Origin: Natronolimnohabitans innermongolicus JCM 12255
GTDB taxonomy: Archaea > Halobacteriota > Halobacteria > Halobacteriales > Natrialbaceae
Length of the DNA stretch: 46,419 nucleotides
Reading direction: 5' to 3'
Assembly: GCF_000337215.1 (NCBI RefSeq)
Contig: NZ_AOHZ01000071.1
Span: 1-46,419, forward strand
The position numbers and the translations under genes are program-made. Below the pieces are notes generated by a model. That model searched no databases. It saw only the letters and a program-made list of their open reading frames with translations, and had not been told where the DNA came from. Positions 41,832 through 46,419 of this stretch are shown one piece after another; the stretch's first letter is position 1, and each line of letters begins with the position of its first letter.

Positions 41832-42674
41832 ATGGCTGCGCCCTGCGACCACCGCGTGCTCGTCCCGGTCGACGTCCTCGGCGGGGAAAGCGTCCCTCGA
41901 ACGGTCATCGACGCGTTCGCGTCGGTTCCGGTTGTCCTGCTCGGCTACCGCGAGATCCCGGACCAGACCGCACCCGAACAGGCCCGCGAGCAGTACGGCG
42001 AGCGGGCGCGCGCCGACCTCGAGGAGCTCCGATCGGTGTTCGAGGACGCCGGCTGCGACGTCACGTCGCGGCTCGCGTTCACGCACGACCGACTGAAGAC
42101 GTTCGAACGCGTCGTCGTGACCGACTCGTGTGATGCGGTTTTGCTGCTCAATCCCGCGCCGATTCTCGAGTCCGTGCTGGTCGCGATTCGGGGCGATGTC
42201 AACGTCGACTACATCGCTCGCCTCCTGGGGACGGTTCTCGACGGGACCGACCTCGAGGTGACGCTGCTTCACGTCGCGTCCGACGAATCGCGTCGAGACG
42301 ACGGAACGGAACTGCTCGAAACCGCCCGCGACGCGTTAGTCGATGCGGACGTCGACGCCGACCGGATCGATCGCAGACTCGTCGTCGACGGGTCGCCGAC
42401 GGACGCCATTCTCGAGGCCGCCGCCGACCACGACCTGCTGGTCGTCGGCGAGAGCCGTCCGTCGGTCCGGCGCTACGTCTTCCGGGATCGGGCCGAACGA
42501 CTGGCCAGAGAGACGGTCGATCCGGTGCTCGTGATCCGCGGCGACTACCTCGAGGTCGACGAGGCGGCGGACGACGACGGTGCCGACGCGAGACCGGTCG
42601 ACGACGGCGCGGTCGTGGTGTCGCCGACCGATATCGCAGACGAGGGAACCGACGGGACCGATGAGCGGTCCTGA
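41832..42674 (+). CDS. UspA-family protein
   Basis: A 280-residue protein with two Usp-like halves: HRVLVPVDVLGGESVPRTVID... (7-130) and VDYIARLLGTVLDGTDLEVTLLHV...LVVGESRPSVRRYVFRDRAERLARETVDPVLVIRGD (about 125-240), then an acidic tail. The second half has the usual nucleotide-site order but lacks a full G-x2-G-x9-G. It is a full-length homologue of the protein encoded at 42801-43514 (compare LGYREIPDQTAPEQAREQYG with [20 protein letters not shown]). It follows the APC fusion after 149 nt on the same strand. Its stop TGA (42672-42674) touches the palindrome. Probably a cytosolic regulator of the adjacent transporter; inference. Confidence 0.88.
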   Translation: MAAPCDHRVLVPVDVLGGESVPRTVIDAFASVPVVLLGYREIPDQTAPEQAREQYGERARADLEELRSVFEDAGCDVTSRLAFTHDRLKTFERVVVTDSCDAVLLLNPAPILESVLVAIRGDVNVDYIARLLGTVLDGTDLEVTLLHVASDESRRDDGTELLETARDALVDADVDADRIDRRLVVDGSPTDAILEAAADHDLLVVGESRPSVRRYVFRDRAERLARETVDPVLVIRGDYLEVDEAADDDGADARPVDDGAVVVSPTDIADEGTDGTDERS

Positions 42675-42782
42675 TACTGCCGGACAGAACTATTCACCGT
42701 CGGTCGTACTACTGCGGCCGTCTCCGACGGTGACGGCCGAGAATTCGCGACCGACGGTTCACTGACTGCTGTCCGGCAGTAT
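42674..42782. repeat. 109-bp interrupted palindrome between convergent usp genes
   Basis: Three nested arm pairs fill the gap: ATACTGCCGGACAG (42674-42687) with its complement (42769-42782), 14 bp perfect; ACCGTCGGTCG (42696-42706) with 42748-42758, 11 bp perfect; CGGCCGTC (42715-42722) with 42732-42739, 8 bp perfect. A tighter alternative apex is CCGTC-TCC-GACGG (42718-42730). The segments between arms do not pair well. It could be a bidirectional terminator, a miniature element, or the junction of an inverted duplication. Both halves read outward-in as the same spaced word set. Confidence 0.85.
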
Positions 42783-42800
42783 GAGCCGGACGCCTGTCCG

Positions 42801-45394: not shown

Positions 45395-46159
45395 TTAGCC
45401 GTCGACGGCGTCGAGCGAGTCCGCCTCGAAGGCGTCGGCGTACTTCGCCAGCGTCTCCTCGTAGCCGGCCACCGCGCGGTCGTAGGTCGCCTGCAGGTCC
45501 TCGAGGGGCGTCTCGCTCGCGTCGACGCGCAGGTCGTTGTACGGCGGCTCCCAGTCGTGGTCTTCGGTCGTCTCGACGACGACGGCGGCGCTCTGGATCG
45601 TGAGTTCCTCGCGCTTGTCGCCGCCGACGACGTCGCCCGCGGCGAGGGCGTCGATCAGCCGCTGTGCGAGGGGGTCGGTCTCGACGTCGTCTCGGACCGC
45701 GCCGGGACCGCTCGAGGGATCCGTCGTCTCGTGGACGGCCGTCTCGGCGTACCGGTCGGCCGTGGCCTCGAGAACGCCGCCGTCGGTCAGCATGTTCCCG
45801 GCGACGGTGAAGTGGTCGCGCTCTTCGTGGCCGAACCAGCCGACGCAGTCGTCGCCGGAGAAGGCGAACGTCCGCTCGCGGTCGACGCCGTGGACCTGCC
45901 GCTGGGCCGCCCCGTCGTCGGCGTTGAGCAGCGCCTCCAGGGCGTCGTCGACGGCGAGTCCGTCCTCGACGTACGCGAGGCCGCGCTCGCCGAGGTCGAC
46001 GTTGACGAGGCTCTGGGTCGCGACGGCGCCGTCGTCGCTCACGAACGGACAGAGCGCACCGACGCCTGGCAGCCGCGTCGTGACGGCGACGCCGAACCGG
46101 TCGTGGGTCTCGCCGTCGTCGGTCTCGTACGTCTCGCGAACGCAGATACTGAACGTCAT
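45395..46159 (-). CDS. DUF1028 family protein
   Basis: A 254-residue protein. The N-terminus MTFSICVRETYE...FGVAVTTRLPGVGALCPFV and GAVATQSLVNVDLGERGL are the defining conserved blocks of DUF1028; TFAFSGDDCVGWFGHEERDHFTVAGNML follows. The family is thought to be Ntn-hydrolase-like and is of unknown substrate; the residue after the initiator Met is Thr, as expected if processing exposes a nucleophile, but that is inference. The C-terminal ~60 residues are acidic and helical. ATG 46159 was chosen because the conserved TFSI begins at residue 2 and a TATA-like box lies 26 nt upstream. Confidence 0.9.
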   Translation of the reverse strand: MTFSICVRETYETDDGETHDRFGVAVTTRLPGVGALCPFVSDDGAVATQSLVNVDLGERGLAYVEDGLAVDDALEALLNADDGAAQRQVHGVDRERTFAFSGDDCVGWFGHEERDHFTVAGNMLTDGGVLEATADRYAETAVHETTDPSSGPGAVRDDVETDPLAQRLIDALAAGDVVGGDKREELTIQSAAVVVETTEDHDWEPPYNDLRVDASETPLEDLQATYDRAVAGYEETLAKYADAFEADSLDAVDG

Positions 46160-46190: not shown

Positions 46191-46273
46191 GGTCGGTCGG
46201 ACACGGACCGATCGACGACGTCGGCCGCCTCGTCGGTCGCAAACGGGCACCCAACGATAGGTTCGTATGGGGG

Positions 46274-46419
46274 TTGACCTCCTCCACGCCCTGAAGGACG
46301 TGGAATCCGACCATCGGATTTCCGCCGGGTGTGGCGTTCGAGGTTCCAACCCGCACTCAAGGGGAACCGGTAGCATCTCGGAAGACACAGTCTTCCGACG
46401 GTCCGCGAGAGCCAAGCTC
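46274..46419 (-). mobile_element. Right end of IS200/IS605-type (TnpB/IS1341-like) element with omega-RNA-like hairpins
   Basis: On the minus strand the sequence ends with GGCGTGGAGGAGGTCAACC, a terminus I associate with haloarchaeal IS1341/IS605 elements. Five short hairpins follow one another: 46378-46398 (9-bp stem, 3-nt loop), 46342-46368 (6-bp stem), 46323-46336 (4-bp stem), 46305-46319 (6-bp stem) and 46283-46304 (TCCACG/CGTGGA, 6-bp stem). A minus-strand frame from the window edge stops at TGA 46357-46359 and may be the last ~20 codons of tnpB. The body of the element lies beyond the window. The insertion point would be near 46274, about 115 bp upstream of the DUF1028 gene. Confidence 0.65.

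Follow-up and report, generated by a model that had tools for sequence, protein, structure and literature searches.

The window analysed here, a stretch of 46,419 nt that constitutes contig C71 of a 121-contig haloarchaeal genome, ends within a mobile element of approximately 400 bp, which is a non-autonomous IS200/IS605 derivative without TnpA or TnpB, i.e., a PATE. The core of this element, about 250-300 nt, is a covarying structured RNA under structural selection, and searches with a covariance model showed the core to be homologous to the omega-RNA of one TnpB clade, where it is embedded in the 3' end of tnpB. The reading favored here, which is considered fairly probable, is that of a PATE in which a stand-alone omega-RNA scaffold of this clade has replaced tnpB and which would be moved and guided in trans.

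The element at the end of the window

A run of hairpins was located on the minus strand at 46274-46419, closing with GGAGGTCAA. Matches to the RNA were scored with the covariance model R1, which was built from stand-alone copies only. The following features were assigned.

46274-46419, minus strand: the 146 bp at the right (3') end of an IS200/IS605-type element without TnpB (PATE), 96-98% identical to two whole copies, with the remainder past the contig end
46274-46419, minus strand: 3' half of a stand-alone omega-RNA-like RNA (R1 match of 105 bits, E 1e-33, spanning model positions 127-249 and truncated at the 5' end)
46274-46282, minus strand: right terminus GGAGGTCAA, the same in TnpB-carrying elements as in stand-alone copies, the following base being variable
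46283-46304, minus strand: terminal hairpin, consensus helix 13, with changes on both sides in 5 of 9 pairs across copies
46305-46319, minus strand: hairpin ATCCGATGGTCGGAT, helix 12 (fold and consensus structure)
46323-46336, minus strand: hairpin CGCC/GGCG, helix 11 (fold and consensus structure)
46379-46397, minus strand: peripheral hairpin CGGAAGAC/GTCTTCCG, within an insertion of ~53 nt found in some copies only
46409-46419, minus strand: peripheral hairpin GCGAGAGC/GCTCTCGC, truncated here where the contig stops but whole in the C34 and C95 copies
46254-46273, minus strand: predicted guide CCCCCATACGAACCTATCGT in element-flanking DNA (homology with the ISDra2 reRNA position, PMC8612924, and the TGAT left flank on C72)
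45395-46159, minus strand: DUF1028 gene (PF06267, E 2e-55), listed for context, on the downstream side of the insertion

The five minus-strand hairpins reported in the first-pass annotation are all present, including the fifth, which is truncated, and the 165-nt stretch folded better than 199 of 200 shuffled sequences (z -2.5). Alignment with the other copies set the terminus where it had been placed (~46274). The proposal that the flank occupies the guide position was borne out by homology with the ISDra2 reRNA (PMC8612924), the use of the flank as a guide being itself a prediction; the flank at this position reads CCCCCATACGAACCTATCG, in which the run of C residues consists of five Cs, one more than originally given. 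The predicted target of the window guide would be TGAT followed by CCCCCATACGAACCTATCGT in the empty allele. The DUF1028 gene does adjoin the element, 114 bp separating the junction from the start codon. Elsewhere in the window, positions 42671-42785, between two UspA-like genes, match C95 on both strands (80% and 75%) and perhaps represent another small palindromic repeat.

Copies in the genome and identity of the element

The 146 bases at the end of the window occur five times in the genome at 96-100% identity: in the window itself, internally on C34 and C95 (96-98%), and at the starts of contigs C47 and C111 (98%). The copies on C34 (410 bp) and C95 (~430 bp) are whole, and four more contigs (C45, C72, C110, and C46) terminate within left halves of the element. 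The copy number is at least six, at different sites as expected of a mobile PATE, with two copies whole and the others cut at contig ends. Seven contig ends fall within the element, and the assembly breaks at the end of the window because the element is repeated, as had been supposed. The other half of the window copy was assigned to C72, since the DUF1028 region and the C72 flank are contiguous in four relatives (synteny in G001, G005, G018, and G009). The left end on C72 directly borders ordinary flanking DNA and has TGAT as its left flank.

The element was compared with three TnpA/TnpB-carrying elements of the same genome, located on C23, C31, and C106. Its first ~41 bp are 84-93% identical to these elements and its last 49-64 bp about 80% identical, the part shared at the right end measuring ~50-80 bp. 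The first-pass annotation had taken the end of the window for a TnpB-type right end and expected a TnpB ORF past the contig end. The right end is indeed that of an IS200/IS605 element with an omega-RNA-like scaffold, and the identity of its terminus with that of TnpB elements would agree with a complete TnpB-carrying element, its gene being located past the contig end. That gene was ruled out, because tnpB is absent from all assembled whole copies, because host DNA on C72 borders the window copy at its left end, and because right ends linked to TnpB in this genome reach 76-86% identity over 35-82 nt as against 96-100% among the PATE copies. The whole copies (410 and ~430 bp) gave no match to TnpA or TnpB and are too short to code for a transposase; the element thus encodes neither protein, unlike an autonomous IS200/IS605 element, which encodes one or both. 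A full TnpB element at this position is hardly credible. The lack of TnpB in the next 1.5 kb, which had been named as grounds for refutation, counts against a TnpB element but not against a TnpB-related one.

Ends, target site, and empty sites

Among the aligned copies, those in which a left end was recognised are located 3' of TGAT, after which come an A, ~8 variable bases, and AGCGCATACC with a palindrome; the right end is GGAGGTCAA. Other stand-alone copies, likewise located after TGAT, have a left end of a second type, in which the palindrome is TTCCGAC...GTCGGAA. The left flank, left end, and right terminus of the C106, C23, and C31 elements are as in the stand-alone copies, TGAT being the left flank of stand-alone and TnpB-linked elements alike. 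The near-terminal palindromes are related to IS605-type ends, as is characteristic of PATEs.

The intergenic region containing the window copy was too divergent to be aligned with that of relatives, and the copy on C34 (L051, C34:42892-43301), which interrupts a lipoprotein cyclophilin gene, was used instead to define an empty site. Deletion of the 410 bp after TGAT gave an intact cyclophilin frame (...HRVIAEFMIQTGDPIETG...), and nine relatives and one paralogue have the ungapped site, with TGAT at the junction in all of them. This paralogue, ~600 bp away (C34:43881-44120), is uninterrupted, and its TGAT falls at the same codon. The restored frame and the ungapped TGAT sites indicate that the element moves by TGAT-targeted insertion without target duplication, a fixed short left target of this kind also being a property of PATEs. 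The same mode of insertion, here in a stand-alone element, is that of ISDra2, in which the target TTGAT doubles as the TnpB target-adjacent motif (PMC8612924).

Structure and conservation of the RNA

The RNA region extends from TGCTACGAATACC to GGAGGTCAA and comprises ~250 nt, or 300 nt with the 53-nt hairpin insertion, which is carried by the window copy. Mean column identity of the RNA was 89% among distinct stand-alone copies, across genera. A conserved secondary structure, as expected of an omega-RNA, was described by a 13-helix consensus in which 96% of cells were paired and 23 of 86 pairs were changed on both sides; the structure was derived from the same alignment, which favors the paired percentage and hardly accounts for the double changes. 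None of 500 shuffles performed as well, and slid structures gave 3-7 double-changed pairs. The complete RNA of the sister copy on C95 folded with a z of -5.2. A candidate in-element promoter is a conserved box containing TTTT, which precedes the RNA start by ~28 nt and is common to copies that differ in their left ends. Some copies, both stand-alone and TnpB-linked (L111, L112, L097, L258, and L244), had extra tandem hairpins at a few positions of the RNA, as though its peripheral loops were sites at which hairpin modules insert.

These data bear on the possibility that the element is an ordinary PATE or MITE in which the interior is no more than a passive leftover from a TnpB element that was deleted, the ends alone mattering for TnpA-driven movement. 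TnpA requires near-terminal palindromes only. The PATEs of Haloquadratum are, moreover, partly described as terminal-only remnants arising from core deletion (PMC3119063). A remnant would decay, however, and the interior combines its conservation across genera with many compensatory changes, which argues against this explanation, as does the wide spread of the lineage after the loss of tnpB. A passive interior was accordingly judged unlikely.

Homology to TnpB omega-RNA and distribution

R1 matched, at full length, the tnpB 3' ends of C23, C31, and C106 (88-100 bits, E 1e-28 to 1e-32), so that the scaffold is homologous to the RNA at the 3' end of a TnpB element, as in omega-RNAs. The landmarks GCTAC, GAGAG against GATGAC, GATGGGGCC..TTGACCGGGCCACA, an AAATCC hairpin, and the terminal hairpin are common to both kinds of RNA. 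In TnpB elements, the homologous stretch codes for the C-terminal tail of the protein; in stand-alone copies, this frame has been lost and new hairpins have been gained. Nearly all stand-alone copies also differ from omega-RNAs in not being encoded in or beside their tnpB.

The family was searched with R1 in 125 genomes (named relatives are Natrialbaceae, e.g., Natrinema and Natribaculum), and the matches split into two groups by score. One hundred places were read together with ~1.9 kb upstream, comprising 61 above 118 bits and 39 at 80-118 bits. No tnpB was found directly upstream in 60 of the former, the exception being L211, while 35 of the latter overlap an L034-type tnpB (62-94% identical) at its 3' end and four show none. 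At L211 (G122:C26), the tnpB upstream of the stand-alone RNA ends 37 nt away and belongs to another clade; the same flank is found at L200 (G123:C1) in a second genome, and the two probably represent one shared insertion. Natrinema pellirubrum pNATPE01 (L269) carries a TnpB-linked omega-RNA and, at a distance of 39 bp in tail-to-tail orientation, a stand-alone PATE RNA. A class-wide search yielded strong R1 matches in several other families, and no tnpB was found beside the RNA in the 20 of these that were read, one of which has a tnpB fragment ~1.6 kb away.

In the RNA tree, a single branch (support 0.72), separate from the TnpB-linked RNAs, holds the stand-alone copies with the exception of the PATE of HRTV-DL1; the alignment was fitted to R1, and the branch constitutes moderate evidence that the ~60 stand-alone copies of this family, and more across the class, belong to one lineage. 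The HRTV-DL1 PATE (L267:874-1087, OP630574) matches R1 with 39.9 bits (E 1e-12), and its placement elsewhere in the tree suggests a second, separate origin of its RNA. It was found by accession; other matches in the phage collection searched comprised only the widely shared terminal hairpin.

Candidate partner proteins and proposed mechanism

Intact TnpBs of the appropriate clade are encoded in the genome on C106 and C23 (475 aa each) and on C31 (463 aa). They belong to guided_TnpB (NF040570) and contain a TNB domain and RuvC motifs, the residues of which align, and a Y1 transposase adjoins those on C106 and C23. L034-type TnpB was present in 21 of 34 genomes with stand-alone RNA versus 26 of 91 genomes without it (Fisher p 0.0009, ignoring phylogeny). 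It was not seen in the other 13 of the 34, two of which are incomplete assemblies; in these genomes, either another TnpB serves or the copies are relics.

Judged from sequence comparison, the element probably depends on larger relatives elsewhere in the genome for both its transposase and its RNA-guided nuclease, and the stand-alone copies most likely encode omega-RNAs by which a TnpB provided in trans is directed back to the empty site. Under the proposed mechanism, TnpA of autonomous elements would move the PATE, a promoter within the element would transcribe the RNA, and L034-type TnpB would bind this RNA in trans, with the 3' flank of the element serving as guide. The complex would then cut the TGAT site that excision has emptied, or the empty site on sister chromosomes, and repair after the cut would copy the PATE back.

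Alternatively, the RNA may be off guide duty, acting as a regulator or decoy (e.g., by sequestering the TnpB or TnpA that autonomous elements encode) or as an ncRNA adopted by the host. The gain of hairpins and loss of coding constraint relative to TnpB-linked omega-RNAs would be compatible with such a role, as would the lack of the cognate TnpB in some hosts. Nearly all copies nevertheless retain the TGAT context and the guide-proximal 3' end, and the flanks vary from copy to copy within a genome, as expected of a guide source; for instance, the 16 copies in G115 have 16 different flanks. A role of this type therefore appears distinctly improbable.

The favored reading of a trans-guided PATE may be extended to the proposal, for and against which the case is about evenly balanced, that widespread TnpB-less haloarchaeal PATEs are guide-RNA-only parasites that carry their address in the flank and are re-copied into empty sites by a foreign TnpB. 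If true, this could matter in polyploid archaea, which have many sister chromosomes; TnpB would act in trans for non-autonomous elements, and an RNA gene alone would be a unit of RNA-guided selfishness. The proposal also offers a testable explanation for the abundance of PATEs in haloarchaea and the transcription of some of them. In addition, the stand-alone copies would represent a natural set of omega-RNAs free of coding constraint, in which compensatory changes expose the structure of the scaffold.

Comparison with known systems

Guide RNAs located apart from the nuclease gene are known from the stand-alone IscB omega-RNAs of Ktedonobacter and from Geobacillus PATEs, in which the nuclease family or the host differs from those considered here.

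PATEs have been reported from Haloquadratum walsbyi (PMC3119063). Those elements are likewise haloarchaeal, have IS605-like near-terminal palindromes and no transposase gene, and show neither inverted terminal repeats nor target duplication; they differ in being presented, in the parts of that paper drawn on here, either as non-coding elements or as remnants of core deletion, to which no RNA product or guide function is assigned. Transcription of a PATE has been reported in Halorubrum (PMC10544981). The PATE of HRTV-DL1 is reported to be the most transcribed part of that virus and resembles the present element in lacking TnpB and containing an RNA that matches R1, but it belongs to another lineage, and its reported transcription, antisense to ORF3, is opposite to the predicted RNA strand and hence not clean support for the RNA (PMC10544981).

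Omega-RNAs inside tnpB have been reported in Halobacterium (PMC12558985). An Rfam search of the window gave no match at gathering level; HgcC (RF00062, E 1e-5) and sot0042 (RF02656, E 0.02) were the only sub-threshold matches, weak and repeatedly found at the same 3' end, and haloarchaeal sotRNAs differ in sitting inside tnpB. The omega-RNA (reRNA) of ISDra2 shares with the PATE RNA a structured right end, a flank that corresponds to the guide, and a target that is also the target-adjacent motif (TTGAT; here TGAT), whereas it overlaps the tnpB of its own element and the PATE RNA stands alone, with extra hairpins and no coding frame (PMC8612924). No description of an independently evolving stand-alone omega-RNA lineage in archaeal TnpB-less elements was found in the literature covered, and no priority is claimed. 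PATEs and omega-RNAs are each known separately, and what appears to be new is the stand-alone omega-RNA-like scaffold within a TnpB-less element.
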